A stretch of DNA of 64,000 nucleotides. Source: Hydra vulgaris. Taxonomy: Eukaryota > Cnidaria > Hydrozoa > Anthoathecata > Hydridae. This document shows, piece after piece, positions 7,870 to 39,117 of the stretch; position 1 is the first letter of the stretch; each line of letters opens with the position of its first letter. A model generated the notes under the pieces. It saw nothing but the letters and a program-made list of their open reading frames with translations. It was not told where the DNA came from and did not search any database. The position numbers and the translations under genes are program-made. The stretch covers positions 38,982,501-39,046,500 of the forward strand of contig NC_088927.1 in NCBI RefSeq assembly GCF_038396675.1. The letters are read 5' to 3'.

Positions 7870-7909
7870 AAAATATAAAACAATTTTAATTCCATTAAAA
7901 ATTAAATAT

Positions 7910-8166
7910 AACGTTTAATCAACGTAAAATATAACGTTGAATCAACTTAAAATACAACGTTTTGCCAATGTAAAATACAAAGTTGAATCAACGTAAGCTA
8001 CGAAATGCCGACTTAAAATATGTTGAGCCAGCGTTGCTTTTTGGTTGTTGGCGACGTCGTATTTGTAACTAAAATGATATAAAAACAACGGTGGCGGTTG
8101 ATGTTGGGTCAACGCATGGCGCAACATTGTTCTAAAGTTTTATTTAAGTACGAATGCTAGCTGGGT
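7910..8166 (-). mobile_element. Subterminal repeat block of a CCCAGC/T-ended element, inverted
   Basis: Repeated words related to AACGTTGAATCAACGTAAAATA (around 7,912-8,000), then further CAACG/CGTTG words up to 8,125, ending in GCTAGCTGGGT (the inverse of a CCCAG start). The words are self-complementary (AACGTT, CAACG/CGTTG). It faces the block starting at 8,174 across a 7-base spacer. Noncoding. The overlapping minus-strand open frame is a by-product. Confidence 0.5.
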
Positions 8167-8173
8167 GACACAA

Positions 8174-8398
8174 CCCAGTAAAAATTGAACAGTTGATAAG
8201 TAGATGGCCCGATCCTAATAACCAACTATTAGCTACAGTTGGGCCAACAGTCGGCTCTTTAGTTGGTACCGTGAAAAAAACGTAACGCTTTTACCAACAC
8301 TTAGCCAACTGTTTTAAAAATTGTTGGTACCATTAACGGCCCAACAGTAATAAAACAGTTAGCTAACAGTTGGTACCATTACGGGCCCAACTATATAA
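8174..8398 (+). mobile_element. Subterminal repeat block of a CCCAGT-ended element
   Basis: It begins CCCAGTAAAAATTGAACAGT and then carries many words around CCAACTGTT/AACAGTTGG, GGTACC and GGGCCCAAC, several in both orientations. The architecture (CCCAGT end plus arrays of short palindromic words) is the same as blocks at 10,871, 18,157 (inverted), 26,879 and 33,582 (inverted), but the word is different. No coding sequence. Confidence 0.5.
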
Positions 8399-8689
8399 CT
8401 TTTTTCGCTTTTATTTAAATTCGCTTTTGCTTTTTAATTGGAAGTGCAAATGTTATAAATGTTTACAACTTGACGTTATGTTGAAAAATGAGTTGCATAT
8501 TTGAAATCAAAAGAGAAATGCTATACAAAAAAGAAATTGTTTGCTCCGCACCAGAAAAAAAATTTTTTTTCTGTTGACCTGAGTAATAATACAGTAATAA
8601 TCATTGTAACAACAGTAGTAATAACAATAACACTACGATTATATTAATAACAGCAGTAATTTATAACAGTAACAATAATAAAAAACTAG
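8399..8689. other. No recognisable feature
   Basis: AT-rich, with AATAATAACAGTAATAA-type simple sequence between the CCCAGT block and repeat unit U. Confidence 0.4.
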
Positions 8690-10868
8690 CAGTAAGCAAC
8701 CCCTAATACGGGTTATGAGCAATGAAGTCATTAATAACAAAAACACATTAATAACTTGATATATTATCTAAAAAATTTAAATCAAATTTATCTATAAATG
8801 GTATTTTAACTATGACTCTCTATCAGCAATGTCATTGTTTATAGTTAACGACATAAAGACCATTAAGATCAGTCAAGTTCTTTTTAAAATCTGTCAAAAC
8901 ACAAGTACCAGAAAAAGAAAGTCAAGTAAAGCCTGCAAATACCTAAAAAATGAAATGAAAAAAAAATTACAACTTTTAATTTAAAAAGTATTATTTACAT
9001 TTTATTGTTAGTACAATTAGGATAACAATTTTACAGAAAATATAAAGAATTGAAAAATATCTATAACAGCCCAAGTCTATCAAAACAAAACACAGCAAAA
9101 ATAGCGCATAGCACAAAATATTTGTAAGCACACATTACTGTGTCTCCAGAGTAATTAAAAAAGAAAAGATTATAAAAAGGCTAGGCAACACAATGTAGTA
9201 ACACTAGCATATAACACCACCGCCTTTTTAAGATATTTTATCAAATAAAATGGACTAAAAAGATTTTATTTATTACAATATTTGAACAATCAAGGGACAA
9301 TTAAAGTTGAACAATTTGAACAATTATACCATATAATAGCAAGCAACTCAAGAAATATTTTTTATAAATGGTCATTATCAATTGAGATATTAAGAAATAT
9401 GTAAGAACTCAGTAATTACATAAGTTTTATTAATTCTCCCTCTGATCTAAAAGAGAGTGGGAGAGAAAGAAAGTTTCCGAAGCAGCTTGTGAAAAAAAGT
9501 AAAAAAACACGCAATAAATAGTAGTAACTGGTTTTATTATGTTACCAGTAAACAAAATTATATTTACCTTGATTTAATTTCCAGCATTTCTTAATTAAGC
9601 TCCAGCTTCTCTCTAACTGTTGAATAATGATTTATAGAGTAAATTTTACATCATGTTAAATTTACAAAATTAAAACCATGTTTCAACTTAAAAAAAAAAA
9701 AAAACATAATTATGTTTGAAATTATAAAAAAGTTTTAAAATCATTTAAATTTAAAACTATTATTAAATGTTACTATAAATAGTAAAATTCATACTTTGTT
9801 CTAAATTGTCTAAAGTAAAATCAAATTAACAAACATTAACACTGCTTGACACTGAATTCTGGCAAGTAAGCTTTCTGCTCGCTGAGCAGTATCTCTTAGA
9901 TTTCAACAATGATTAATCTCATCTTGCCTAGATCTATCTCTTTCACTTGAAAAGAACAATTTTCAAGTTGCCTATTAGCATTTACTTTAATAACTTCTCT
10001 GAACCTAATATCATCCATTTCAATTTCACAATATCATTAAACATATTACCAGAAATATTACTATTGTTACAACTGAATAATAAAAAAATGTAAAAGAATC
10101 TTAAAAATTGTGATCTTTTCTAATCAAAGACTATATTTAAACTTAAGATTTATTGAAACCCATATCTTTTTATGTTTATATGCATAAGTTGATTATTAAA
10201 AATATTAAACAATATTTATTTACATCAATTATTTTTAGTTTAACAAAATATCTAGATTACAATCCACACAATTATTTAGGTGATCAACAAATTACTGACT
10301 GTAAATTTTGATCACTTTCATGTCAACAAATTACAGTCAGTTTTTCATGTTAAATAGATAAAATATATATTTAATATAAATAAATCTAATATAAAATAAA
10401 AAAAAATTAGTAATTTACTGAAATCTGTACCAGTTATACTGTGTGAAGTGACTAAAAAACTTCTGTTCTTTCCAATTGCACTAAAAAATAGCTTTCAGCT
10501 CTTACCAATTGCACTAAAAAATAAAACAAAACTTGCTTAGCTTAGTTGCCTAGTTCTTAAGAATCTGAAAACAAATAAGTAAAAAACCAAGAACAAACAA
10601 ACATTTATTTACTAAAACTACTATATATAAACAAATTAAAGTAAACAAAGAACAACATCAATTCTCCTTAAAGGCTAAGAAAAAAATTTCAACTCAAATT
10701 TGTTTGCAGACCTTGCTTGTAAAACAATGTGAATAATAAACACATTTAGAAAAGCTAAGAAACTACTTAAAAATGACAGATGCAACATTAAAGTTTAGAC
10801 GTTGACTGGACTAATTATTAGTAGATCCTTATAAAAAATTCACACAAATTTACAATATTTTGTTCTCC
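8690..10868 (+). repeat. Repeat unit U, copy 1 (main part)
   Basis: This stretch reappears inverted at 28,690-33,115. Anchors include the GCAACCC..TACGGGTTATGAG word (8,697 versus 33,100), a CTCCCTCT..AGAGAG stretch (9,435 versus 32,440), CCAGCATTTCTTAATTAAGC (9,581 versus 32,285), AAGATTTATTGAAA-CCATATC (10,146 versus 30,930) and GTTTGCAGACCTTGCTTGTA (10,702 versus 28,825). It continues after the 7.3-kb insertion as 18,160-18,262. No open frames of note, so U is a noncoding repeat or the noncoding part of a larger element. Copies differ by many substitutions and small indels, so the duplication is old. Confidence 0.8.
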
Positions 10869-10870
10869 TA

Positions 10871-11098
10871 CCCAGTGAAAAATAAAACCGCGTCCCACAT
10901 GGGTTCCGCGTGGGTTCCGTATGGGATTGATGGGATTTACGTGGGACGGATTTTCCCATGTGGTATCCGTATGGAAATTTGTCACCTTAAACCCATGTGG
11001 GTAATCCCACATGGGTTACTTGTGGGAACCATATGGTATTTACACACATGGGAAATCCCACGTGGGTTTCCTGTGGGATTTGCATGGGAATTAATTTG
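10871..11098 (+). repeat. Left subterminal word array of element B
   Basis: It carries repeated CCCACATGGG, CCCATATGG and CCACGTGGG words spaced at roughly 15-30 bases, in both orientations because the words are self-complementary. Long opposed open frames here are a by-product of the palindromic words. A fragment with the same start (CCCAGTGAAAAATAAAACCG) lies at 12,374-12,432. Confidence 0.75.
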
Positions 11099-11287
11099 AA
11101 AGCTGGAAACTAAAAAAAAAAATTTAAATCGACATGGCATTGCGTTACGTTTATATTGTGTGAAAATATTTTATATTAAAATAGAGAATGGCAAGCAAGT
11201 ATGTAAGTACCACGAATAATGTTTATCTCTCTTTATAGAAATAAGATTAAGATTTGTTTAAATAGACGTATTATTAGGATAATATAA

Positions 11288-12125
11288 TATTTATTTGAAT
11301 ATAGATCTTGAGTAAATTATTTGCAAACAATTGACTGATGCAAGTTCAAATGTTGTCAAAAACCAATCTTGCATGCATGAGACACTGCAGTGTCCCACAA
11401 AGAAATGCAGGTTTGAAAGTCAGAATTCCCAATTTTCTTTATTAAAAAAAGAAAAAAATAGGATGGAGATGGGTTTCTGTAACTTTTTTTATGCTCCAAA
11501 ACTCCTTAAGACTTATGGGACTTACGAACTGTATTGAGGAACAAAAACAGGATATTTTACAGAAACTTTTCAATTTTTAATCTGGAGTACCACAGTGTTA
11601 TTGAGAATAAAGCCTCTGGGTCCAGTTTTCAAAGTAATATGATCTAAACTAATGTTTAAATAAAATATTATGCTTTGAAATGCATATAGTTATACATATA
11701 ACTGATAGTTAACTATATGTATAACTGGTTATACATATAATTTGTTATAAAAACTTATTTTATAAAGTTATACATGAACAAATTAGTACCAATTAATTCA
11801 AATTCAAGATTAGAGTTCAAGTTGAAATTCTTATTTATTCATTAATTGTGTTAATTTTATATTTATTTGTTCAAATTTATCAGTTATTACTATTTTTTAC
11901 TACAGTAAGAATGTTTATCATTGTTGAATGTGATTTTATTAAAAACCTAATTTTATTTTCAACATATTTTGACAACACCCTTTATATTTTAAATAATGAC
12001 AGCTTTACTTTTCTATTGATGTTAAATTTATTACGTTTCAGTAACTCAGATTAAATCTTAACTGAGTTATTGTAAGCTTTGTAGGGGGTTGTATATCAAA
12101 TGGTGTTGTAAATAAAGTAAAAATT
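11288..12125. repeat. Left arm of a ~0.83-kb inverted repeat (partner 12,545-13,360)
   Basis: Sequence from ATTTGAATATAGATCTTGAG through GCAAACAATTGACTGATGCA, a CACTGCAGTGTCCCACAAAG word, and AATGGTGTTGTAAATAAAG is repeated in reverse complement at 12,545-13,360. The arms differ by scattered substitutions and small gaps. No convincing coding content in either arm. Confidence 0.8.
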
Positions 12126-12373
12126 ATATGTATATATACATATATATATAGATATATATATATATATAAAACAAACATCTAAATTTCTATAAGTAAATTT
12201 ATTCTTTGATCATTGCCTTCATATCCTATCTTATTTTTATATCATAATCTATTATGGAATTATTTATATAACATATCACAACAATATTATTAAATATAAA
12301 CATCTTTATTGTCAGCTAAAGCATGTAGCACGTCTTATTATATATTTTATAGATCGTTATACTCATGCTAAGC

Positions 12374-12432
12374 CCCAGTGAAAAATAAAACCGCGTCCCA
12401 CATGGGTTCCACGTGGGTTCCCATGGGTTCAC
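12374..12432 (+). repeat. Extra copy of an element B terminus
   Basis: It starts CCCAGTGAAAAATAAAACCG and has two copies of the GGGTTCC word, then stops abruptly before ACAACAATATTATT. It duplicates the first ~55 bases of element B and lies between the arms of the inverted repeat. Confidence 0.8.
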
Positions 12433-12439
12433 AACAATA

Positions 12440-12445
<6 letters not shown>

Positions 12446-12525
<80 letters not shown>
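12446..12525. repeat. (TA)n microsatellite
   Basis: Pure TA run in the spacer between the two inverted-repeat arms. Confidence 0.95.
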
Positions 12526-12529
<4 letters not shown>

Positions 12530-12544
12530 TGATTACTTATTATT

Positions 12545-13360
12545 ACTTTATTTACAACACCATTTGATATACAACTAACCCTTACAAAGCTTACAATAAT
12601 TCAGTTAAAATTCAATCTGAGTTATTGAAACGTAATAAATTTAACATCAATAGAAAAGTAAAGCTGTCATTATTTAAAATGTAAAGGGTGTTGTCAAAAT
12701 ATGTTGATAGTAAAATTAAGTTACTAATAAATTCACGTTCAACAATAATTTATATTCTTACTGTCGTAAGAATTAGTACTAGTTAACAAATTTGAACAAA
12801 TAAGTATAAAATAGTGAAAAAACAATGAACAAATAACTTGAACTTGAACTAAATCTTGAATTTAAATTAATTGGTACTAATTTGTTCAAGCATAACCTTA
12901 AAAAAGTTATATGTATTATAAAGGAGTTATATGTATAACTGCATGCATTTTAAAGCATTTTATTTAATTTATATATTACTTTAGATCATATTTCTTTGAA
13001 TACTGGACCCAGAGACTTTATTCCCAATTACACTGTGGTACTCCAGATTAAAAATTGAAAAGTTTCTGTATATATCCTGTTTTTGTTCCTCAATGTACTT
13101 CGTAAGTCCTTTAAGTTTTATGAACCTTATTACATATAAAGTTAAAAGTTTTGGCCCCTAAAAAAAGTTACAGAAACCTCCCTATCTCCCCCCTATTTTA
13201 ATTTTTTTTTTCAATAAAGAAAATTTGACTTTCAAACCTGCATTTCTTTGTGGGACACTGCAGTGTCCCATGCATGCATACTTGGTTTTTGACAACATTT
13301 GAACTTGCATCAGTCAATTGTTTGCAGATAATATACTCAAGAACTATATTCAAATATCAT
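12545..13360. repeat. Right arm of the ~0.83-kb inverted repeat
   Basis: Reverse complement of 11,288-12,125. Just beyond it, 13,400-13,525 is in turn the inverse of 12,165-12,300, giving the order L1-L2-R1-R2, which a single foldback event would not produce. Confidence 0.8.
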
Positions 13361-13394
13361 ATGAACATTTTAGAGAATGTTCATATGATATTTG
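13351..13394. repeat. Perfect hairpin, 19-bp arms, 6-base loop
   Basis: CAAATATCATATGAACATT, loop TTAGAG, exact reverse complement. It sits at the outer edge of the right arm. Confidence 0.95.
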
Positions 13395-13562
13395 AACATC
13401 ACAAATTTAATAATATTGTTGTGATATGTTATATAAATAATTCCATAATAGATTATGATATGAAAATAAGATAGGATATGAAGGCAATGATCAAAGAATA
13501 AATTTACTTATAGAAATTTAGATGTTTGTTTATTAGTTTCAGAATATTATGTTATGTGTGAC

Positions 13563-16500
13563 CGCGGCCTTCTATAATAAAAGGCCTTGACATCGCGCAA
13601 CAAAGTTGTTAAACTGAAGGCCAATTCCTAATACTTTGTTTACATTTTCATCTTTTAACATTAGACGAAAGTTTGTGTTCGCGCTTTTTTAATAAATCTC
13701 TAAAATGTGATTGGTTTATAAATTAGATAGCCCAACATCAAGACGATAACGTTGTAAGGTTCAAGGCGTTAACATTGTAAGGTAATAATATTGTCAAACT
13801 AACGATAAGTTTTTTTAATAATTAAAATGCCTTAAAAATGCCTTTAAAATGCTGTGTATCTCTTTGCAAGTCGAACTATCTCAACTACAACAAAAGTATC
13901 AATTTATACAACTACAATTACAATATCAATTACAACTACAACTACAACAAAAATATCAATACTCAACTACAACAAAAATATCAATTTATAAATTCCCGAA
14001 GAATCTAGAGGAGAGAAAAAGATGTAGTGAAGCTATCCCAAGAACTGGTTTTATTGTTACAGACTATACAGCAGTATGTCAACTGCATTGGCCAAATGAA
14101 GCACCTTTTGAAAGCAAATATGGGAAGCAACGACCTTTAAGCCTACCATCTGTTTTTAAAAATGTTCCGCCTAGTTGTTTAGCCACACCAGCAAGTGAAG
14201 TTAGAAAAACTGTAACTTCAAGTGGTTTTCGAAGCATTTTACCAGATGAGTTAAATGATTTTCTAAAAGAGGATGAACTTATATTTGACGATATTCAATC
14301 TTTGTTAAGTGATAATAACGATGTTATTGTTTTCCAGCTTATTAAAAAAAGTTTACACGTACTATCAAAAATGTACAAACTTGGTGCTCCATTATTTATT
14401 TTAGTAATTTTCAATGATTATTGATTTGTAGCTAACCATAATGGCACAACTTGTAATATTTCATCTTTAGCTGTAAACAAATTAAAGTTAATAAAAACAA
14501 AATCAGCTTTATTTGAAGCAGTTAGATTTTTAAAAGATAAAGAAAGTTCACTTTAGTCAAATATTCTATTCGAACACCTTAATGCTATGAGAAAAGTTAA
14601 TGTCGGTGAAGTTTTATATACTTCAGATATTGTATGTAGAGCATATGAGTATTTTGCTATGCGACGAAGTTTATATGATTGTTTGCGTATTGACTACAAG
14701 TTGCCAAGTATAAGGATTTTAACACGATTGACTTCAAAAATAAGCTCAATGGAGGACCTAAGTTTCATAAATAGTATTATTATGAATTTAAATCCATTGA
14801 AAAGAACTTCCATACTACTAATTGATGAGGTCTATGTCAAAGCTTCATTACTTTACCAAAGAGGTGCTTTGTTTGGTCAAGCAGTAAACTACCCTGAAAA
14901 GTTAGCTAAAACAATTTTATCATTTATGATTAAATGTCTTTTTGGAGGTCCAGAATTTATATGTAGAGCTCAACCTGTTGCAAATCTTTCCTCTGAATTT
15001 CAGTTTGCTTAATGTCAACAAATTGTTGATACGATAAATAATATTGAAAATAGTAATAATTACTGATGGTAACCGTGTAAATCAAAGATTTTTTCGGAAT
15101 GTTTAAAACAGTTGATAGTAAACCATGGTTAACAATATCAGGTATATATTTATTGTATGATTATGTGCATCTCTTAAAATCTATACGAAACAATTGGTTG
15201 ACAAAAAAAAGACTGGGGAACTTCAATTTTTGAACAATAAAGAACTGGCTTTGGCTAAGTGGAGTGATTTAGAAACTTTATATAAAACTGAGTGCAATAG
15301 TCTTTTTAAACTCTCTAAACTTACAGCTAAATCAGTTTATCCAAAACCAATAGAGAGACAATCTGTAAAGTTTTGTTTGCCTGTTTTTTGCGAAGAAACA
15401 GTAGATGCATTAAGAACGCATCCAGAGATTGAAAATAAAGCATTTGAAGGTACTGCTGTATTTATTGAAAAAATACTTTTTTTTTAGAATGTTGTTAATG
15501 TCAAAGCACCTGGTGCTGGCATTCGGTTTAGAAATGAATTATGCGGAGAAATCCACTCAGTTGGTGATCAACAGTTACAACTGCTATGAGATATTGCTGA
15601 ACTGTCAAATTTTATGAAACCTTCAGGTAAGCGTGTAAAACAGCTTATGCTAGATACTAGCAATGCTGTAGCACATTCATGTTATGGCTTTATTGATCTC
15701 GTAGAAACTTTGTTGAGTAATGGAGCAAAGTATGTCTTATTAGGTTGGTTTTCAACAGATCCACTTGAAAAAGCTTTTTCTAAGCTTCGACAGGGATCTG
15801 GAGGTACTTACTTTATAAACGCTAAATCTGTAATTGAAAAAATTAATATTAAACATACTAAATTGATATTACAACTTGACATTCCTGTTGATGGTATCGA
15901 TGGTCATACTTGTGACATATGTTTTAGAGATATTTCTACTGATGAAAAAGAACTTCTGGATAATATACATGATCTTGAAAGCTCAGTTAATAAATCTACA
16001 TTAGTGGCTATAGTTTACATAGCTGGCTATGTGCAAAAAAGCGAAATAAAAATTTATGATGATTCTACCAATTATTATTATAAATATGGAAGTTATCTGT
16101 ATAGTCTAAACAGAGGCGGACTTGAAATTCCTTCTGATACTCTTTTCTAATGGTCAATATTTTGCTTTTTTTTTTTTCAAGGTGCTACTGACCCTTTATG
16201 CAGAACATTTTGTGTTACTTTGTTTCAGTTCATTGCTGCTAAATATTAATTTAAAATCACAAAAAAACGATGCAGAGTATATTCTAATATTCTGCTAAAG
16301 AATTACTCACTAATTACCACTCCCAAAATACTAAAGCTATCATAATTTATGTGAAAATTAGTTTTGTAATTTATTATGCTATTTACTAGTTATGTTTTTT
16401 ATTTTCTCATTAGCCTATATGTCTCGCAATATGTTTGGATTTGTAAATATTTACCCTGTTGAGATATATTGATAAAACTTTTTTTTTGCTTGAATCAATT

Positions 16501-16875
16501 TTTGTTGGTGTTTTTTATTGTTGGTGATTTTTATTGTTACCATTTTTAGCAAAAAAAATTAACAATACAGTTATCTTTCTAATATATAGATATATACTTT
16601 GTTATGGTTCTGCTTGTTATTGATAATATTTAACATTACATAAATATTCTTAATGAAATTTGAAATACGAAAAACATGATTATCTTTTAACAATTTTTTG
16701 GTTTTCTTTTTATATTTCCGTCTTTACTAGAGATTATTATTAGAAATCATAGACTGCCATTACACCCTACCTAATATAAAAATATATCAATATAAGTAAA
16801 AGTGAAAGTTTAATCGGCCTTCAGTTTTTACGGCATTTTGCGCGATGTCAAGGCCTGTTATTATAGAAGGCCGTG
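13563..16875 (+). mobile_element. P1: P-type transposon, 3.3 kb, with 8-bp target duplication
   Basis: The left end is CGCGGCCTTCTATAATAAAA and the right end, inverted, is CACGGCCTTCTATAATAACA; both continue into AGGCCTTGACATCGCGCAA. The flanks carry TGTGTGAC on both sides (13,555-13,562 and 16,876-16,883), an 8-bp duplication typical of P elements. Inside is a broken THAP-type transposase in the plus direction. Non-autonomous today because of stops and a frameshift. A second family (P2, 34.1-43.8 kb) has related ends. Confidence 0.9.
13838..16150 (+). pseudogene. P element transposase with THAP domain, broken
   Basis: Starts MPLKCCVSLCKSNY, giving the first zinc-ligand cysteines of a THAP finger. 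A (CAACTA)n-type expansion (about 13,877-13,985) follows, after which the frame changes. The finger then resumes with KFPKNLEERKRC, RTGFIVTDYTAVCQLHWP (the Cys-x2-His pair) and a KYGKQRPLSLPSVF tail. After a stop at 14,422 come the catalytic parts. SILLIDEVYVK has the first Asp, then GALFGQAVNYPEKLAK and FGGPEFICR. TDGNRVNQRFF at about 15,063 is out of the main frame. YDYVHLLKSIRNNW ends at about 15,200. The end piece has STDPLEKAFSKLRQGSGG (D-x2-E) at about 15,748-15,800. Breaks: the frameshift at the repeat, stops at 14,422, 14,556 and 15,010, and further shifts near 15,060 and 15,480. In an active element this enzyme excises and reinserts the transposon in the nucleus. Confidence 0.85.
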
Positions 16876-17015
16876 TGTGTGACGAAAAAGTAAAGATACT
16901 TTTGCATTCAGTGGCTATTACACCTAAGGTTTATATCATTGAAAAAGTAGGTTTTTACATTTTTGCTTTTGTTTTTTTGTTTAACTACTTATCCTAATTG
17001 ATCACTTTTTTTCAG

Positions 17016-17084
17016 GATTCTCCTCATGGGTTCAAGGTCATTACGCATAATATGTGTTCAATTACCCATAATACGTTAGTCATT
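17016..17084 (+). pseudogene. Second exon-like segment of element B
   Basis: TTTTTTTCAG precedes it and GTAAGT follows at 17,085. The 69 bases are open for 23 codons (DSPHGFKVITHNMCSI, then THNTLVI) and join in phase 0 to the split exon ending at 16,946. No family recognised and no further exons found, so it is speculative. Confidence 0.35.
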
Positions 17085-17229
17085 GTAAGTAATAAATTAG
17101 GAAATAATTATTTGTGAAATATTGTAGTCATTAATGACTTCAACCTGGCTAATAATTAAAATTGCACGACTAACAAGGTTCCTTATTAAAATTGCTCTCT
17201 TAAAATATCTCTCTCTCTTTCTCTCTCTC

Positions 17230-17366
<137 letters not shown>

Positions 17367-17617
17367 TTATATATATTTGTATTTATTTTTTTTTTTTAGA
17401 AAATGTTTGAAGAAAGTTAGAAGATACTAAAAACCTTGGTATTATACAAGCCGAAGCGATTTAATTAATTCAATCGATAAAAAACGGCGTGTAAATCGCA
17501 AAAGATAATATTTTTAATATTCATTTTGGATGTATTGCTTAATAGCATTTTTTTAAAAATAAATTCATTTTGCAACACGTTTTTTAATTTTATAAAATTT
17601 TGTCATAATAGTTAAGG

Positions 17618-18157
17618 TAAATCCCACATAGGTTATAGGTGGAAAACATCACATTTAAAAGATCAAAAATGCTACACATTTTGAATACCAAATGGGATAA
17701 AGTAGCAAATACCAGATTAAGTTAAGCCTCTCTGAAAGCTTCGATGATTAATTTTAAATTACTATTTAAGTAATTTTTAAATTAAAAGAATTTTAAAAAT
17801 TATCATAGAAGCATTCGGACTTTCATTTGTCTAGTATTGACTACTTTTATACCATTTGGATAAAAATATGTGGCATTTAAGATCTATAACATGTAGTATT
17901 TTCCGCCTATATCCCATGTAGGATTTACCACATAAAACCCATGTGGGATTTACCATATGAAACCCACATGGGACAAAATAATAATCCCCATATGGGTTAC
18001 ATATGGTAAAAACCCACGCGTATCCCATATGGGATTTACCATATGGAATCCATGTGGGATTTACCATATGAAACCCACATGGGACAAAATAATAATCCCC
18101 ACATGGGTTACATGTGGACAAAATCCACGCGTATCCCATGTGCGCTTTTTCACTGGG
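17618..18157 (-). repeat. Right subterminal word array of element B
   Basis: Mirror of the left end, with many CCCATGTGGGATTTACCATA-type units. An ~125-base unit is repeated twice (about 17,950 and 18,060), ending in CTTTTTCACTGGG. The opposed open frames follow from the self-complementary words. Sequence at 17,620-17,660 (CCCACATAGGTTATAGGTGG) begins the array. Confidence 0.75.
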
Positions 18158-18159
18158 TA

Positions 18160-18262
18160 TATCGCATAAATCCATTATATGATAAATCTGAAATGAAAAA
18201 ATGTAACAAATAAGTAAATACAAAGAAAAACATCATATATGAATCGAAAATCAATGTTTTGA
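18160..18262 (+). repeat. Repeat unit U, copy 1 (continuation)
   Basis: CATAAATC..ATATGATAAATCTGAAATG and the following ~80 bases are the inverse of 28,560-28,665. This is the far side of the element B insertion. Confidence 0.8.
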
Positions 18263-18402
18263 TAGATTATTGTCAATAACAATATGGGCATAGAAGTAGT
18301 CGTTTAGGGAAGTGCTAAATTAATACCATATAAACTATACCTACATTTATTGATTCAGTCACTCTCAAACACAAAATGCATACATATAAGTTGTTATATT
18401 AT

Positions 18403-19184
<782 letters not shown>

Positions 19185-19353
19185 AAGTAGTGGTAAAATC
19201 ATTTTAATTAAATGATATTACCACTACTTTTGTTGAATCATTCTAAATTCCAAATCATTTATTTGAATCATACTTAATATGATTCAAATAAATTACCATT
19301 CAATGAATGGTAATTTATTTGAATCATATTAAGTATGATTCAAATAAATGATT
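19185..19353. repeat. Two palindromes, the second perfect over 101 bases and nested
   Basis: AAAGTAGTGGTAA...TTACCACTACTTT forms a ~21-bp-arm hairpin at about 19,186-19,233. At 19,253-19,353 a perfect palindrome has 50-bp arms around a single base (19,303). Each arm is itself a hairpin (TTTATTTGAATCATA, CTTAA, then its complement), so one strand can fold into a long stem or a three-hairpin form. Confidence 0.95.
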
Positions 19354-20398
19354 TAGCTAATTTCACTTTTTATAAGTTTTTATGCTAAGTATTGAGACAG
19401 TTCAATTATAAAACTCTTATATTTTTAATTACAGTTTAATTTTAGATAGAGCTCTTAAAATTAATAAAGAAGTATAATTAACTTTATTATTAGCACATAG
19501 TTTTTTTAACTTAATAAAAGTTAATATTACTACAGAAATATGACAGAAGACACTGTTAAAATGATTAAAAAAAGTTACAATGCTTATCTATTATTCAGTT
19601 ATGACTTTGGTTTGATTTATTTAAACTTGAAAAGTTTATTTAATTCATTTCTTCATGATTGTATTCAAAAAAAAAAAAATTTCATTATATATTTTCATTT
19701 CTTTTATAATTTGCTATTAATTAATAATTTTTCAATTAAAACAGTTAATTTGCAATTTTAAATAGTTCTTTAACCAATTTTTGTTTAACTTTTTTTTAAT
19801 ATGCAGTTAATAGGATTAAAATTGGTTTTATATTATAAATTCAATAATACATTTTTTTTGCTCAGTCCAATCATATTAAATTTTTAAAAAGTTTTATATC
19901 ATATAATAATATAATATACTGCTTTTTTTATGTATTTGAATGAATAATGAATTTTTATGTATTTGAATGAATAATGAATATATCATCTATGAGTAATATA
20001 CTAATACTTGTCTGAAAATATATAGACATATATAATTTATTTATAGTATATTAAATTTAATATACTATTTATAGTATATTATATTTATAATATACTATAT
20101 ATTTAATATATACTATAATATATACTATATTATAGTATATATTAAATATATACTATAAGATAATATATACTTAATACATACTATATCAATAATAATTATG
20201 AATGATATGATTCCGATACAGCAATGACAGTCTTCCACAATAGTAGAGTAGAAAAACTTAAAAAAACACAGAAAGGCTATTACTATTTCTTACTGGACTA
20301 GAAAAGATAATGATTCTGATGCTGTTGATTATTATATGAAAAAGTTCCAGCTAGTTGCTGACATTGTATCCTGTGAGTTGATGTTTTCCTAATGTGAA
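19354..20398. other. No gene; TA-rich palindromic patch
   Basis: Around 20,040-20,165 there are overlapping TATAGTATATTAAATTTAAT-type inverted words. The rest is AT-rich with only short chance frames. Confidence 0.4.
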
Positions 20399-21970
<1,572 letters not shown>

Positions 21971-23559
21971 GTATTTTTTCGAATCTCATTAAAAATATAT
22001 TTTTTTTAGGTTGTAAAAAAGGAGGGGGGGGGGTGATGATACGCCCCCTTTCCCATCTACACCACTTGAAACAAAGGGTGCGCTGCTAGTGATGTTGTAA
22101 AGTAGTAAAATATAATTTTTAATTTGATACTAGATTTCTTTTTAATTATAAAGACAAATATTTATAAAAAAAAAGAGTCTTTTTTGATAATAGGGTGTTT
22201 GAAACCATCACCCTTACATCCACCTAAAGACAATGATGAAACTTCTATATTTGACTGTGGTCTGATAGCTAATTACAAAACATGTTGTATATAAAAATTT
22301 ACATTTTCATTAAAAAAACACTTTTATATATATATAGTATAGTTAGTCTTTATTGCCGGTATGAATGGTGGTTTTGTGCCCCCTCTTTCCCCCGGATGCG
22401 CCTGTAATCTAGAGACCTTTATAAATTTGTAGATAACTCTTGTGTCTATCTTTTGATACCAAGATATAAAATTTTGGATAAGAATTGATTAAGTTATAAT
22501 AGTTTTAGTTTATAAAAACTTTATTTTGACCACAGTTTCTTCAACAAATCCTAATATCAAAAAATCGGTACTTAAAACGTCATAACTTTTTGTAATTACG
22601 CTTATAAAAATGTTGCAAACCAGTAAATTAAAATAAGCTAAATTCTTCTTTGCATAATTTTACCTATGTTTTTTTTATTGCCAAGACGTAATTCTGCGTT
22701 GAGTTAAACAAAAGCCACAGATTTCAATGAAGAAGCATTTCCCAAATAATCTTTTTTTAAAAGATTGCGCTTATGAATAGAATAATGGTATGTATTAGAC
22801 CAAAGTAGTTAGTTGCTCAAAAAAGAATTTCGTGATTTATTTCATTTTAGTTTCCATATCAAGTTAGAAAGCTGAAAAGTATAAATGTTATCTCTTTTTT
22901 CTCTCGTAAATCCAAAACAATGTTTTAATTTCACTTCGTTGTCAATACACCTATCTTCAAATATTGTTCTCTATGCAATAAGTAGTTTCTACTTTACGTC
23001 AGTTGAAACAAAAAGCTTATTATTACTGTCAACATCAAGACTAGACAAATGCTTTCTTTCAGAGCTAGATTAATCATTCAAAAAAATTATAAATACAATA
23101 TATTGCACTAAAATTCATGAAACTTTAGTACTATTAATTGTGTAACTAGGTAAACATTTAGTCTAAACAAATAGAAATATCACCATAATAAACTTTGTGC
23201 AAAGCATGGCTCAAAACTTTTTGCATAACTCTCATATGCAAATGAAAGTTACTAAGGATTTTTTTATTTGGGTGATCGTGATACCTGCAATACTTGGCAA
23301 CGATTCATTTTGCAAAGTTACTAGCTTAAATTTTTTAAAGCATCAAAGTTATGAACAAGACTAATGTTAATGTTTTATTCTGATTGAAAATACTTTATAC
23401 ATTTAAAAAAATAAACATATTTCCAATACTAATATTAGGTGTTTTTATGCAGTTCTATGGCTTTTTTTTATATTTCATGACACTACTACATAATCCATAT
23501 AAAAAAGAGCCTAGAGCTTAAACCTTTATGTATATATAATAGTATAATATCTATTTATT
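21971..23559. other. No recognisable gene
   Basis: It includes a G-rich stretch (GGAGGGGGGGGGGTGATG, about 22,021) and AT-rich sequence. The CGCCCCC..CCCCC words near 22,045 and 22,380 may be decayed element sequence. A 62-codon frame at 22,885 has no family features. Confidence 0.4.
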
Positions 23560-24033
23560 TAAAACTATTGTTGATACCAAAACTCATATATTCTGATAAT
23601 TGTAAAGCAGCTTTAGCTTCTTTTTCTTTGCTATCTTGGCACAAACTACAATCCGATGCAAACAATGGTTCAGAAGATAAAAAAGATGCAACTAAAGGCG
23701 CCAATCTTCTTTTCTTGGTTTTATTACTGGAAATATCATAATTCACCTGAGGTCTGTCAGACACTACAGTCGAAAAAGAGGAGAGTTATTCTTATTATCA
23801 ATTACAAAATGAACCGATATTGGTTCATTTTGTAACCATAGTTTGTTATTCACTTCGAAACAAATTTTAGAGCTTTTGCATAAATTCTACCTTTGTCGAA
23901 CATGCTTTAATAAATTAGACGAGTTATTACTTGCAGATAAGCTCGTGCCGTTTATAACTGCATCCAAAATATTAGGATTAACTAACTTCAAGATTTCTTG
24001 TGTTATATATGAATAAACATCAATATTTTTCAT
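23556..24033 (-). pseudogene. Unrecognised coding-like remnant
   Basis: On the minus strand, two blocks look protein-like. From about 24,032 down to 23,890: MKNIDVYSYITQEILKLVNP, then NILDAVINGTSL...LLKHVRQR, then a stop. From 23,764 to 23,556: SDRPQVNYDISSNKTKKRR...EKEAKAALQLSEYMSF. Between them a hairpin (23,802-23,835, 14-bp arms) breaks the frame. The composition is more codon-like than its surroundings. The second block loosely resembles the linker before a hAT C-terminus, but I cannot assign it. Confidence 0.3.
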
Positions 24034-25432
24034 GTTTTAAATATTTAAAAACATGAATTACATTAACAAAATCTTATAAATAAATATTTTAAGATGTATT
24101 AATATTAAAACAAGCTTATAACATCTAACATCTGGACTCACTGAAACCCAATTATTACATAACCATTTAAAATAAAATACATTTAGTGTTTTCGACACAC
24201 AATATAAGCGGATACATCAGTTCACTTGTAAAAACCATTATTTATAACCAGGCACACATCCACGGATTATAAACCAAATTTATATTGACAATATACACAT
24301 TGAACTATGTATTTCAAGCCTCAAATTACTGAACCGTAAAAGCATTGCATTATATACATATTATTATGTAAGTGAAATTTTAACTAAAAAAAGTACTTCA
24401 AATACGCCATCATCTGAAATCATTTTATTTGACATAACTTACGTGCAAAATAGTGTTGCAATAATTCATTTGAAAGACAATACTTGATTTTATTATATTA
24501 TGCAATAAAAAGAGAGGTTTACAAATTAACAACTGTTTTATGCTTATTAGTAACACAAAAAAAATTTTAAAATAAAAAATAAAATGCAAAATTTTTTTTT
24601 TTCAAAAAAAAAGGCTTTTTATTATTCAGCTTGGAAGCATACAGCAAGATAATTATACAAAAATATATATAATTTTAGCTGAATGTTTAAGCTATAAAAT
24701 GGTATACAAAAATGTTATTTTTTAGAACGTATTTTTTTACTTTTGTCCAGCACCTGACCCACTGTGCGCTGTAGTAAATAATGGCGTACTATAAAAGCAA
24801 TATTTTTATTGACTCAATGAATGTATACAGTAAACGTAGTACACACAAAAAAACTACAACGTTTATTTAAAACCAAACTTATTTTTTAAACAAGAGCTTA
24901 TATCGTTTGTTATCAATACCAAACATACCAACAAATTTATCTATAAAGTCCTTTTTTTTTATGCAATTTATTTTGTTTCTGTGTACGCTTTACTACACAA
25001 ACCAGACAAACGGTCATTTGATGTCGTTGACCTTTTTTTTACACAACATAATCTTTTAAACGATTGTACGGTGAAGCAATATTCTAAACGAGTGCTTCAC
25101 CGTACATTTTGTTGCTGGTAAAGTTAACACTTGCGAGGCATACCTAATACCTGGATAAAATTGTGTAAAAGGTAATAAGTTGATGAAATCTTCGCTACTG
25201 TTGTATTATCAAGCGTTCAAAAATCAAACTAACTCAGGGCCTCAGTTACAAAACTATCTATGCTGTATACGTTATTAGTCATAGAAACTTTGTCTTAAAA
25301 TGTTTGAACAATCTAGACAAATGGAAGTGGAACATTAACTTTGTTAGATAAAAACGGAAATCTCTCTGAAAAACTTAAAAAGAAACTTAAAAACAAAAAA
25401 AATAGCTATTCATTATCAAGCAAGTAGGACTA
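24034..25432. other. No gene; one hairpin at 25,065-25,106
   Basis: AT-rich. TGTACGGTGAAGCA at 25,065-25,078 pairs exactly with 25,093-25,106 around a 14-base loop. Confidence 0.5.
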
Positions 25433-25575
25433 TTTGGTTGAGTTGCTCGGCCTTTGTTTGGGTTGAGTTGCTTAGCCCTTGTTTTAGTTGAGTTGCTAGG
25501 CCATTATTTTGGTTGAGTTGTTCGGCCATTTTTTTTTATTTGGTTGACTTGCTCGGCCATTGTTTTCATTGGGCT
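25433..25575. repeat. ~33-bp tandem repeat (GGTTGAGTTGCTCGGCC)
   Basis: About four to five units of GGTTGAGTTGCTCGGCCATT followed by a T-rich tail, with substitutions. Noncoding. Confidence 0.85.
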
Positions 25576-26164
25576 TAAACTAATTGAAAATTTATGATAC
25601 GTGCTAAAAAACAAAGTAAAGAAATATCATTAAAAAATTAAAAATCTAAAAATGAATTAAATGACAATGTGGGGCACAACTCAATTAGTCTAAATGAATT
25701 ATTAATTGAAAGCAAAAATTGTGGTTACGGCTCTGACCTGTATACAATTATTTTTTAATGATACGTACATGTTTCTTTAAAAAGTTCTATATATGTGGTT
25801 TATTTATTTATTTTATTTACTTCTTTTTTGCTTTGAAGATTATGTCTGATAAACGGGCTTGGGCTTCATTTATTACAAAACGAAACAAATTGTATTATAT
25901 GTTTTAAAAAATTTTGTTTAGATAATCTAGAGTTGATGGTCATTTAATATTAAGTCTTCCTATTTGTAAGTTATTAGATGTTGTTTTTGCTTCTTCAAAT
26001 CATGCCACCAATTGGCGAACAGTTGTTGAAAAAAATGGGTATTTTCTATAAAAATGTTCGTGTTTCTTTAAAATAATTTATTTAGTGTTTTGTGCACATA
26101 TTAAGACTATTTAAGCACATTGTTGCTATCTATTACAAAGATTTTATATTTATCTTAAACTATT

Positions 26165-26878
26165 TGTAAATAAAATGCCGAAAAAGTGATTAATAGAAAA
26201 AGTAAATAAAATGCCAAAAAAGTGATTCGTTTAAAAAGTAAATAAAATGCCGAAAAAGCGATTAGTTTAAAAAGTAAATAAAACGCCGAAAAAGCGATTA
26301 GTTTAAAAAGTAAATAAAATGACGAATAGTCATTTTGAATAGTCATTTAGTTTTTAAACTGACCACAAAAAGTGGTCAGTTTAAAAACTAAATAAAATGA
26401 CGAAAAGCGATTAAATTAAAAAGTAAATAAAATAACAAAAACATTACCTTTAAAAGGTAAATAAAATCACGAAAAAGTGATTAGTTTAAAAAGAAAACAA
26501 AATGACAAAAAAAATGGTATGTTTTTTTAACATTTAATTTACTTTTTTAGTTTTTTAACATTTTAATTTACTTTTTTAACATTTTAATTTACTTTTTTAG
26601 TAAATAATATTTACAAAAAAGTGATTGGTTTAAAAAGTAAAGAAAATGACGAAAAAAACGATTAGTTTAAAAAGTAAATAAAATGACGAAAAAGTGATAA
26701 GTTTAAAAAGTAAATAAAACGACAACAAGCGAATAAATTCAAAAGTAAATAAAATGACGAAAAAGTGATTGGTTTGAAAAGTAAATAAAATAGCAAAAAA
26801 GTGATTGGTGTAAAAAGTAAATAAAATGACGAAACAGTGATTAGTTTAGAAATTAAATAAAATGACAAAAATGTGATT
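26165..26878. repeat. 36-bp satellite array, left part
   Basis: Unit of 36 bases containing GTAAATAAAATGACGAAAAA and GTGATTAGTTTAAA. About 18 units with mutations and a 21-bp-arm hairpin at 26,346-26,392. The same array resumes at 33,583 in the same orientation, so block E2 interrupts it. Because 36 is a multiple of three, open frames persist on the minus strand; they are not genes. Confidence 0.9.
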
Positions 26879-27225
26879 CCCAGTCGGCATATCTAGTATT
26901 GTAAATACTCGGAGTATTGATCGCGTATAACATACCGCCGTTGATACCAGAAAAATACGCATTTAGTTTTAAGTTTCGAATTCGAGTTCAATACCACTTA
27001 TTTATCAAAAATACGTATTATTTAATATTTGATCAAAATCGGATACGATATCCCAGTCGGCATATCTAGTATTGTAAATACTCAGAGTATTGATCACGTA
27101 TAACATACCGCCGTTGATACCAGAAAAATGCGCATTTAGTTTTAAGTTTCGAATTCGAGTTCAATACCACTTATTTATCAAAAATACGTATTATTTAATA
27201 TTTGATCAAAATCGGATACGATATC
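26879..27225 (+). repeat. Left subterminal tandem duplication of E2
   Basis: Two copies of a ~173-base unit starting CCCAGTCGGCATATCTAGTA, differing at only a few positions (CTCGGAG/CTCAGAG, GATCGCG/GATCACG, ATACGC/ATGCGC). It contains palindromic words such as AATACGTATTATT. Confidence 0.9.
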
Positions 27226-28554
27226 GTACCAGATCTCGATCAAATATCAACATATAACGGAAAAACGAAAATCTTTGCTATAAAGCGCATGCTTAAACTG
27301 AAATTGTGAAAGCAAAATTTAAATAAAAAAGTTTTCATTTGAAATATTTAGTAAAAAGTTTGTCTGGAATGAAAAGGAATAGTCAGGAATACATGAAAAG
27401 TTGTATGAAGAGATATCGTTCTGCTAAAGTAGTATCGCATATCTCCAATACAGTTACAGTACTTTTTTGTACTAAAAAAGTTATTAAAACTTTATCATAA
27501 AAATATTTATTACTACTTTTAAACTTATTTTGTTTTGTTCTAATTTTTTATTATATTTTTATTTTCTTATTATCTTTATTTTATTTATTAAGTCCTAAAT
27601 TAATATAATTCAAATATATTATAAATCCTATCATTTCATACCTTGCTTATTCTATTATGTTGATTATTATTTTATTGACATTTCTGTTATGCTATTACCT
27701 TTTTTTTGTACTGTTTTAAAAAATTTAGAAAAAGAAATTAAAATTTCGAGCCAACACTGACATTTTATTGTTGCTAAACGTTAAATTTTGTTATAAGGAT
27801 TGCAGTTCTTCTATCTGTTTTTTGCTCTTTATTCAATAAGTATTTGATTTAAATTAAATAAAATTATAATTTGATATTTTATTACGAGAAGTATGTTTTT
27901 ATATATATATTCATATATATGAATATATATATGAATCTTTTTAGATTTTTTCATGTTATTTTTAAATTTTTTGTTCGCGCAATTCAAGTTATATATGTTT
28001 ATAGTTTGCATATATGTTTATGTTATGTTCAAAGTTAAAATTTTTTTGATAAACATATGTATGTGGTAATATGTGTTCTGTAATCGTTTTATAAATGTGT
28101 CATTAAAATAGTATAAAATGTATCTATTGTGTATATAAATATTATATGAGGTGTTTATATATGTTATATAAAGTTAAATAAATGTATTATGTTTTATAGT
28201 TATTATATATGTTTATATTATGTTGTTTCCATATTTTCAAAGTGTGTGACTTGGCAAACGTGTTGAGCAAGATTTTGCGTAAAGTTGTTATTTATGTTAC
28301 TAATGTTGTTACATTTGGCTTACCTTTATGTTGGTGTCTATTGTTAAAAATTATAAGTGGTTTTATTATTGAAACTCACTGCTTTTAATCATTCACTAAA
28401 AGCCACTCAAGAAAAATCATTTTGCCGTATATACATTTTGTTTATATCTCAATTTGAATTTTTAGAACCATGACGTACCAACATGATTTGTTTTCTTAAA
28501 GCTAACATGAAATAACAATATTTAACTACTACTACTCTCTTATCATGACATCTT
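27226..28554. other. E2 interior, no gene
   Basis: AT-rich sequence without convincing coding. Small TA/CATATG palindromes around 27,900-27,940. Confidence 0.4.
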
Positions 28555-29186
28555 ATCTCTATCTGATATATTGATTTTCGATTCATATATGATGTTTTTC
28601 TTTGTATTTACTTATCCATTACATTTTTTCATTTCAGATTTATCATATGATTGATTTATGCAATATAAAAGACCAAATGTATGTAAATTTTTATGAATTT
28701 TTGAAAAACATCTGCTAATAATTAGTCCAGTCAATGTTCAAACTTCAATGTTGCATATGTCATTTTTAAGTAGTTTCTAGGCTTTTCTAAATGTGTTTTT
28801 TATTCACATGGTTTTACAAGCAAGGTCTGCAAGCAAATTTGAGCTAAAATTTTTTTTTTAGCTTTTAAAGAGAATTGGTGTTATTTTTTGTTTAATTTAA
28901 TTTGTTTAAATGTAGTAGTTCTAACAAATAAATGTTTGTTTGTTCTTGGTTTTTTACTTATCTGTTTTCAGATTCTTATAAACTAGGCAACTCAACTAAG
29001 CAAGTTTTGTTTTATTTTTTAGTGCTATTGGAAAGAGCTAAAAGTTATTTTTTTCGAGCAATTGAAAAGAACTGAAGTGTTTTTTAGTTACTTCACACGG
29101 TGTAACTGATACTGGTTTGAGTAAGTTTACTATTTTGTTTTATTTTATATTGGATTTATTTTATATTTGATATATATTATATTAGA

Positions 29187-29583
29187 TAGTAAACGACCGG
29201 GGCTATGGCCGGGGCCAGGTTTGATAACACATAGCCACAACCAGGGATGAGTTTATGATCAGTGCTGCATTAATATTGATAGATCCTATGAAAATGTTAT
29301 TTTTAATTGAAATTTATGATATGAGTTATAATTAAAAACAATACTTTTATAGGATCTATCAATATAAATGCAACCCCGGTCATAAACCCGGCCGGGGCTG
29401 CATTAAAATTGATAGATCCTATAAAATATTGTTTTTAAATAAAATTCATATCATAAATTTTAATTAAAGATAACATTTTTATATGATCTATCAATATTAA
29501 TGCAGCCCTGATCATAAACCTGGCCCTGGTCATGGCTATGTGTTATCAAACCTAGCCCCGGCCATAGCCCCCGTCGTTTACTA
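29187..29583. mobile_element. 397-bp MITE with 8-bp target duplication
   Basis: It starts TAGTAAACGACCGGGGCTAT and ends with the near-inverse CGTCGTTTACTA; the arms continue for well over 100 bases. Flanking ATATTAGA is duplicated at 29,179-29,186 and 29,584-29,591. Inside, nested inverted words (GATAGATCCTAT, GGCCGGGGC) give several hairpins. GC-rich compared with its surroundings. Eight-base duplications are made by hAT and P transposases; which one moved it is unknown. Confidence 0.85.
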
Positions 29584-29673
29584 ATATTAGATATATATTT
29601 TATGTATTTAACATGGAAAACTGACTGTAATTTGTTGACACAAAAGTTTATAAACTTAAATCTGCCTACATTT

Positions 29674-30719
<1,046 letters not shown>

Positions 30720-31073
30720 TATATATATAATTACTTTAGAGTAAATTATACTGACTGACATTGCTTCAATTTTTTATTCAAGATTGTGCATTTATTATTT
30801 TTGTTTATTAAGGTAAAAATAATTTTGTGCATTAAAGATTCTTTGTTAAATTAAAAATAATTGATGTAAATAAATATTGTTTAATATTTTTGATAAACGA
30901 CTTATGTATATAAACATATAAAAAGATATGGATTTCAATAAATCTTAAGTTTAAATATAGTCTTTGATTAGAAAAGATCACAATTTGTGAGATTCTTTTA
31001 CTTTCATTTATTCAATTATAACAATAGTAAGATTACTGGTAATATGTTTAATGATAACAGTGAAATTGAAATA

Positions 31074-31820
31074 ACATGTGATTCCAAAAAATCTGGACAA
31101 ACTTCCCGCCAATTTTTTCTCCGCGTAAATTTATCAATTTTGATTGGCTCGCACACCATTTTGTAGAGAATTAAATTCTCTACAAAACTCATTAATTTTA
31201 TACTGAGCAACAAATTTGAAATGATGAAAAAAGTTACTTCGAAACAAGATGACGTAAGAAAGCGAGTGTACGAGTTTATTGAAATTAACCCAGAACTTTC
31301 CAAAAACGGAATTGTAAAACATTTTATGATGGAAAGTATTTCAAGATCTAGGCTCTACAATATTCTAAAACGAAAAGACAACAACATATTACCCAAATGA
31401 CAAGTTGGAAGCGGTAGGAAAGCAGTTAAGATGACAAAAAAGAAGATCAAACAATTGGAAAAAAAAATCGACCATCAACATGGAATCAGTCAACGTTCTC
31501 TTGCTAAAAAATTCCTTGTCAATCAATCATACTTATGCAAAACGATAAAGCAGAAGACAATCATTCATTATCATTAAAAAATTAAGGCTCCAAAAAGAAC
31601 TTCTGAACAACAATCTCTTGTTCGTCCAAAGTGCTCTAAATTGGTTGAAATTTTTTGAAAAAAACAGTTTGCAGACAAGGAATGGAAAATTTGTAATTTT
31701 TTGTAATATTACTCTTCGAACATTGCTCTTTTTGAAACATCGTTCAAAACTTAAAAAATAAGTCATCTTTCTAAAAATATTTTAGAATTTAATTTGTCCA
31801 GATTTTTTGGAATCACATGT
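31074..31820 (+). mobile_element. mariner-type element, 747 bp, decayed
   Basis: Ends ACATGTGATTCCAAAAAATC and its exact inverse, with TA on both sides (31,072-31,073; 31,821-31,822). A long open stretch from about 31,221 reads MKKVTSKQDDVRKRVYEFIE and SRSRLYNILKRKDNN, helix-turn-helix-like, followed by a stop and a KMTKKKIKQLEKKI, GISQRSLAKKF block. The catalytic part is missing or scrambled (31,600-31,760). A 14-bp perfect hairpin lies at 31,159-31,187. Copy 1 of unit U has the empty site. Confidence 0.8.
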
Positions 31821-33159
31821 TAGATAGTATTAGGCTCAACGAAGTTATTAATGTAAATGCTAATAGGCAACTTGAAAATAGTTGTCAAATGAAAAAAATA
31901 GATCTAGGTAGGATGAAATTAATCGTTGTTGAAATGTAAGAAATGCAACTTGGTGTGCAGAAAACTTACTTGACAGAATTCAGTATCAAGCAGTGTTAAT
32001 GTCCGTTAATTTGATTTTACTTTAGACACTTTAGAACAAAGCAAAGTATGAGTTTAACTATTTATAGTAACAATTAACACTTTTAAATCTAAATAATTTT
32101 TTTTTTTTTTTTATAATTTCTATCATAATGCTCTTTTTTCATTTTTTTTTTTAGTTTGTCTTCCCTTTGTCATCTTTTGATTAGTTAGCTAACTGTTGAA
32201 ACATGGTTTTAATTTTGTAAATTTAGTATGATGTGAAATTTACTCTATTAATCATTAGTCAACACTTAGAGAGAAGCTGGAGCTTAATTAAGAAATGCTG
32301 GAAATTAGCTTTTAATCAAGGTAAAAATAATTTTGTTTACTGGTAACATAATAAAACCAGTTACTACTATTTATTCCGTGCTTTTTTACATTTGTTAACA
32401 TGCTGCTTTGGAAACACTTTCTCTCTCTCCCTCTCTCTTAGATGAGAGGGAGATTTAATAAAACTTATGTAATTACTGAGCTCTTACGTAATACCACAAA
32501 TGATAATGACCATTTGTAAGAAATATTTTACGAGTTGCTTTCTATTTTATGATATAGTTGCTCAAATTGTTAAACTATAATTGTCCCTTGATTGTTCAAA
32601 TATTGTAATAAATAAAATCTTTTTAGTCCAAGTATTTAAGTTAATAAAATATCTTATTAAGTTGTGGTGTTATTTGCCAGCGTTACTATAGTAACAATGT
32701 ATACATTGTGTTGTCTAGCCTTTTTATAATCTTTTTAAATTATTCTGTAGACAGAATATATATTTTCTGTTATTATTATCCTAATTCTACTAAAAATAAA
32801 ATGTAAATAGTACTTTTGTAATTAAAAATTGTAATTTTTTTTTCATATCTTTTTTTAGGTATTTGTAGGCTTTACTTGACTTTTCTTATGTGGTACTTGA
32901 CAGATTTAAAAAAAAACTCAACTGATGTTAATGCGGTCTTTATGTCGTTACCTATAAGCAATGAAGTTGCTGATACGGAGTCAAAGTTAAAATATTTATA
33001 GATAAATTTGTATGTAATATTTTAGATAATATATCAAGTTATTAATGTGTTTTTATTGTTATTAATGATTTAATAACTCATAACCCGTATTACGGGTTGC
33101 TTACTGCTAGTCATTATCATTATGTTATGAATTCTTATTAGTTAATAAAATTGTACTGA

Positions 33160-33582
33160 ATATTCTCTGGTTGTCATGTTTTAGACGTGTTTAAATGCGA
33201 GTTTGATTCTCAGTAGGCGTCGTATTGTATACCTGTCTTTATACGCATCGGATGTCTAATTTTAATGCGCGTTTGACACGACAAAATGGCTAACATATAT
33301 TCGTTAATAATGCGTATTCTGGAAAGTTTCAAATGCGCATGTAATACCAGGAAAATATCGTATTAAATATTCTCTGGTTATCGTGTTTTATACGTGTTTA
33401 CAAGAGTTTTAAATGCGAGTTTGATACTCAGTAGGCGTCGTATTGTATACCTGTCTTTATACGCATCTAATGCGTATTTCTAATGCGTGTTCGACACGAT
33501 AAAATGGCTAACATACATACCACATCGATACGTATTTAAACGAGTTTCTAATGCGCATTTACAACTAAATTTGCCGACTGGG
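33160..33582 (-). repeat. Right subterminal tandem duplication of E2
   Basis: A ~215-base unit repeated twice (AATATTCTCTGGTT..CGTGTTTTA..GACACGA..AAAATGGCTAACAT) with many ATGCGCATT, AATGCGTATT and ATACGTATT words, ending TGCCGACTGGG. Confidence 0.85.
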
Positions 33583-34093: not shown

Positions 34094-34098
34094 AAATG

Positions 34099-36019: not shown

Positions 36020-36084
36020 GTTGACTATAATTGATCTTTATCGTTACACTAAAATAGATGATAAGAGAATGTTGTGTACGTATA

Positions 36085-38697: not shown

Positions 38698-38758
38698 TTA
38701 AGAGAACTCGTATTGTTTGATGTTTTCTTATTAATATTACATACACTCTTACACACGA

Positions 38759-39117
<359 letters not shown>

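Follow-up and report, generated by a model that had tools for sequence, protein, structure and literature searches.

Candidate TRC-type transposon families with constant CCCAGY ends and family-specific word arrays in a 64-kb window of the Hydra vulgaris genome

Blocks of short recurring words that adjoin a constant CCCAGT or CCCAGC end are found repeatedly in a 64,000-nucleotide stretch of Hydra vulgaris DNA (hereafter the window). With a probability of about 0.85, we attribute these blocks to the ends of four Hydra families of cut-and-paste transposons of the CACTA/EnSpm TRC type, and the copies that were read look non-autonomous. More unusual is that two of these families have one body in common, framed by unrelated ends. 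The window itself is AT-rich animal DNA, packed with nested transposons, and a protein piece from it shows 96% identity to a Hydra vulgaris protein; its relevant features are collected in Table 1.

Table 1. Positions of transposon ends, arrays, bodies and two-orientation islands in the window.
Feature	Position	Strand	Details
Family A end	7904..8165	-	CCCAGCTAGC..., word CAACGTTG; truncated; complete relative L067:33-1047
Family B end	8174..8410	+	CCCAGTAAAAATTG..., words CCAACWGT and TTGGTACC
Body X (part) of B element	8686..10870	-	CTAG end 8686-8689; resumes after E1 at 18158 to ~18265
E1 transposon	10871..18157	+	CCCAGTGAAAAA...TTTTTCACTGGG, TA duplication; inserted in X of B element
E1 left array (C)	10871..11095	+	word CCCAYRTGGG
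Piece of E1-type left end, within E1	12374..12430	+	
P-like element nested in E1	13562..16874	+	inverted ends of its own; flanked by an 8-bp repeat
E1 right array (D)	17905..18157	-	word CCCAYRTGGG
E3 element	26879..33582	+	CCCAGTCGGC ends; inserted in 36-bp minisatellite
E3 left array (E)	26879..27228	+	173-bp tandem pair, word AATRCGYATT
Body X of E3	28560..33110	+	two Tc1-like insertions; hairpin and CTAG 33082-33110
E3 right array (F)	33140..33582	-	word AATRCGYATT
CCCAGY-adjoining island	7876..8500		score 42
CCCAGY-adjoining island	10776..11225		score 63
CCCAGY-adjoining island	17776..18275		score 97
CCCAGY-adjoining island	26851..27250		score 29

A sequence-only reading of the window had placed CCCAGT or CCCAGC at six block ends, and all six coordinates match. 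CCCAGY occurs 19 times in the window compared to 9.85 ± 3.33 times in 100 shuffles; eight occurrences adjoin arrays (8165, 8174, 10871, 12374, 18157, 26879, 27052 and 33582), and the remaining eleven are close to the chance expectation. In blocks B, C, D and F, repeated 6-mers were more frequent than in any of 500 shuffles. The effect was weaker in block A (7885–8165), where 54 of 500 shuffles reached the observed level, and block E showed no excess of repeated 6-mers (500 of 500). The arrays had also been described as palindromic. Exact palindromes, however, were not in excess, either in the whole window (212 vs. 228.1 in 20 controls) or in blocks A and F. A single short self-complementary word that recurs in both orientations is a better description of the arrays.

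A scan of the window for two-orientation arrays, run blind to CCCAGT, returned 15 islands, seven of them within 60 bp of a CCCAGY. Four of the top five adjoin CCCAGY arrays (Table 1) and the fifth (38676–38975, score 42) corresponds to a microsatellite. The F island scores just 10, within the control maxima of 9–26. Comparison of word spectra gave a cosine of 0.64 for C and D and of 0.37 for E and F (background 99th percentile 0.35, maximum 0.991), and at most 0.17 for the remaining block pairs. C thus pairs with D and E with F, resulting in four word families, the arrays of which extend for 200–500 bp behind the ends. The two ends of one element carry matching words, and the words differ between elements. 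A family-specific subterminal motif in both orientations, i.e. the layout of CACTA/EnSpm elements, is therefore present, being weakest at end E.

The boundary of the ends was addressed across the Hydra vulgaris genome (911 Mb, 15 contigs; window at G000:C8:38982501-39046500), using as queries single ends plus some flank (A 8165, B 8174, C 10871, F 33582). The copies scored were the best 40 of 783 (C), 514 (A), 254 (B) and 414 (F) first-look candidates and hence represent the closest copies. Among the best-scoring non-self copies, matches began on CCC or up to three bases outside in 33/39 (C), 33/39 (A), 29/39 (B) and 36/39 (F), and within seven bases of CCCAGC/CCCAGT in 37/39 (A), 39/39 (B), 39/39 (C) and 38/39 (F); the tally for F omits one more row, C1:729321, which likewise begins on CCC. 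When 20 A boundaries were read by eye, 18 showed CCCAGC and the other two CCCAAC and CCAGC, respectively; the adjoining flanks looked unrelated. Twelve F stretches comprised nine single ends, all with CCCAGTCGGC and unrelated flanks, two back-to-back pairs, and one end downstream of E-like sequence. These sharp match starts confirm CCCAGT/CCCAGC as an element boundary for ends A, B, C and F. For these four ends the termini are constant and the arrays family-specific, as the sequence-only reading had supposed, and their copies begin with CCC, as do the terminal inverted repeats (TIRs) of TRC elements.

The E1 transposon allowed the target site to be analysed in a set of copies. Of 20 fetched C-end copies, 16 had both ends properly oriented, giving 17 with the window copy; L026, L027, L028 and L035 were left out, as both ends were not properly placed in the fetched stretch. 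An exact 2-bp target duplication, as in TRC elements, flanks 15 of the 17 copies, L016 and L019 being the two exceptions, and no 3-bp duplication was seen among them. Moreover, an uninterrupted relative of the repeat that the window copy splits represents the empty site. Tc1/mariner elements insert strictly at TA. Assigning the CCC-ended elements to this superfamily would agree with TA being the most frequent among the exact duplications (8 of 15), yet the other seven are AA (3), AT, TT, CT and CA (one each), despite a query that included the TA of the window and thereby favoured TA-flanked copies. These non-TA duplications largely refute a Tc1/mariner origin, to which we give only a minimal chance. 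A short duplication as anticipated for these termini is found in E1, at 2 bp, but TA is not obligatory. ISL2EU elements were set aside as well, as the Hydra ends start with CCC and the duplications are mixed; the accessible text of PMC4482050 gives an AT target duplication and a TIR that usually starts with GG.

A large, imperfect inverted repeat makes up the interior of E1 (11292–13531), and in its middle lie 55 bp of the E1 left end. L016 carries the same left-end piece as the window copy at 12374, and L019 has its left end in a context equal to that of this piece. All 17 E1 copies show one or both edges of the P-like segment (Table 1), at a position that is consistent by alignment. The segment includes a broken THAP/P-like transposase gene with weak Pfam matches to THAP and TNP-like RNase H, both under the curated cut-offs, and one among 120 listed relatives bears the name P transposase. 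These observations would suit an E1 that belongs to the P superfamily and is moved by the gene it carries. However, the P-like segment is bounded by inverted ends of its own, CRCGGCCTTCTATAATAA..., and flanked by the 8-bp repeat TGTGTGAC, and the duplications of E1 are 2 bp and not the 8 bp of P elements. We consider a P-type E1 highly improbable and, because of the 2-bp target duplication, read the P-like element as a putative nested passenger of the E1 family rather than its driver. Elsewhere in the window, 34098–36022 and 41437–43361 are inverted copies (99.8% identity) of an element with an open frame that, by eye, looks similar to the P-like gene.

A complete element of family A was found in L067 (33–1047). 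It spans 1,015 bp, has CCCAGCTAGC at either end and TA at both sides, i.e. a 2-bp duplication in the one complete A element at hand, and its seven CAACGTTG words are spread over both halves. The A and B ends of the window stand back to back with an 8-bp spacer (8166–8173). Back-to-back F pairs exist elsewhere in the genome, with spacers of 2 bp (L070:37-38) and 15 bp (L071:35-49). Such pairs may reflect either a target preference or rearrangement. As for E3, both units of the tandem pair at its E end (26879–27225) begin at CCCAGT, and no clear 2-bp duplication was discernible for the window copy in the surrounding minisatellite. In L072, an F-type end comes after a unit sequence similar to that of E.

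The B and E/F elements have the body X in common. Comparison of 8686–10870 plus 18158 to ~18265 with ~28560–33110 revealed 80–90% identity in pieces, and unrelated terminal regions. Within X of E3, 29780–30730 holds a Tc3-type helix-turn-helix gene piece, and 31085–31825 was called Tc1-like by eye. The junction between X and F was spanned by 39/39 best-scoring non-self copies at 96–98% identity (of 1,366 first-look candidates), and that between X and B by 39/39 at 89–94% identity (of 1,161), identities being to the window copy over the junction. As both lists hold the best-scoring copies, X copies with other neighbours would be missing from them; among the listed copies, seven loci are common to the B-end list and the X-to-B junction list. 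Family B homology continues through X in L068, where B end and X form one piece at 91% identity. It extends to 8570 in L066, a B copy without a match to the window beyond this point, which thus lacks X. L066 was also considered as a complete B element and rejected, as it represents an inverted duplication taking in its flanks. L069, which was read for the far end of the B element in L068, departs from X early, and no B-type end was seen in it.

The presence of X in both families can be explained by an exchange of ends or by the entry of a Helitron-like X into both. Helitrons are recognized by a 3′ hairpin followed by CTRR, a 5′ TC and an A/T target. X terminates in the hairpin AACCCGTATTACGGGTT, eight bases and CTAG followed by T, and in the window B copy it starts with TCTATC after A. 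In addition, the match between L068 and the window F copy reaches no further than 17 bp outside the CTAG. For the B/F question, we give about even odds to X being a Helitron nested in two unrelated CCC-ended families after separate entries, with no exchange of ends. Conversely, weak similarity seems to extend beyond the CTAG by about 50 bp (score 34 vs. 20.0 ± 3.7; 1 of 200 single-base shuffles reaches it), X has the same orientation and a similar distance to the end in B and F (512 and 472 bp), and, judged by the best-scoring copies, each of the two high-copy families has its junction fixed. These features could instead point to the replacement of whole terminal arrays, in which one body X, about 2.3 kb long, came to be multiplied with B ends and, probably later, with F ends, the array being exchangeable and CCCAGY fixed; we propose this tentatively, as the less probable course. 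The sequence-only reading had each family switching its word. Two families with a common body and unrelated ends are in line with this idea, but a nested Helitron-like body fits the same data.

The attribution of all four families to CACTA is based on ends, duplication and layout, because none of the CCC-ended copies fetched turned out to contain a CACTA transposase. A profile search of the Hydra genome for Transposase_21 (PF02992) gave six matches, with 13 of 13 candidates scored, and none of the six falls in any fetched CCC-ended copy. The 15.5-kb surroundings of two of these loci contain one element that by eye starts CACTCTTACG (CAC, not CCC). In this element (L036 with L042/L043; L039 with L044/L045), a two-orientation AAACC/GGTTT array is located about 5 kb from the gene. 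For one Transposase_21 protein, 48 homologues were found and aligned. Pattern scans of viral contigs returned zero matches in each, and an analogous scan of prokaryote contigs returned seven loci that, on reading, resembled chance matches in bacterial DNA.

In the available part of PMC2613891, the conserved TIR of CACTA elements is thought to be used by the transposase, and the family-specific subterminal repeats are bound by a divergent DNA-binding protein. The sequence-only reading, with its constant end and changing word, comes close to this published model. By analogy, a CACTA-type transposase encoded elsewhere would cut at the constant CCCAGY end of the Hydra elements, and a family-specific DNA-binding protein or domain would bind the word array and bring the ends together. 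As the word is self-complementary, a dimeric binder would suit. It is plausible on the same analogy that the arrays are putative binding sites (PMC2613891). In the 17 E1 copies, however, words were not better conserved than spacers (variant cells per site 0.140 vs. 0.067 at end C, 0.770 vs. 0.784 at end D), a comparison that is weak because the copies were picked by similarity.

If the two families with one body indeed arose by an exchange of ends, they would represent a natural experiment in gaining new recognition sites with the cleavage site unchanged, and many copies would be available for dating the switch. Even as ordinary CACTA elements, the CCC-ended elements of this animal show that, as in plants, a constant end is combined with a separate subterminal array that is specific to the family.

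The sequence-only reading had regarded these blocks as the least conventional system in the window. This is not supported, as TIRs that start with CCC and duplications of 2 bp are already described for animal TRC elements, which belong to the CACTA superfamily, e.g. in Aedes with the TIR CCCAGTCAAC (PMC1636069, in part). A CCC-starting end with a 2-bp duplication has been given for Hydra itself, CCCAGCCAAC (PMC4298943, in part), so that the CCC-ended Hydra families, with their CACTA layout, are of a known kind. Against the attribution, the relatives of CACTA grouped as CMCT mostly start with CA in the text available. Like the Hydra families, SmTRC1 of Schistosoma and the TRC elements of Aedes and Tribolium combine a CCC-starting TIR with a length of several kb, and SmTRC1 resembles E1 in its 2-bp duplication, reported for 7 of 14 copies (PMC1636069). 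In contrast to the Hydra CCC-ended copies, in which none was found, SmTRC1 has a Transposase_21 domain. The accessible portion of its description mentions a repeat inside the TIR and no palindromic word array, whereas the Hydra families have arrays (PMC1636069).

The closest described relative by genus is Spongebob_HMa/EnSpm-4N1_HM from Hydra magnipapillata, classed under TRC, with a 2-bp duplication and the TIR CCCAGCCAACATTGAC, which is close to CCCAGCTAGCATTCG of the window A end (PMC4298943, excerpt). In the same excerpt it is without intact transposase and has 441 copies; the comparison with family A is by description and TIR (PMC4298943). Body X has a parallel in the CMITEs of Acropora, in which the inner region is better conserved between families than the ends, although CMITEs are small and tied to piggyBac-like elements, unlike the Hydra elements (PMC2872659, in part). 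Among plant elements, En/Spm, Tam1 and soybean Tgm share with Hydra the combination of a conserved TIR and a family-specific subterminal motif in direct and inverted orientation, whereas their ends start with CACTA and the soybean element has a 3-bp duplication (PMC2613891). For En/Spm, binding of the subterminal motif by TNPA is reported in the part of the source available (PMC2613891), whereas for the Hydra arrays such binding is a prediction.
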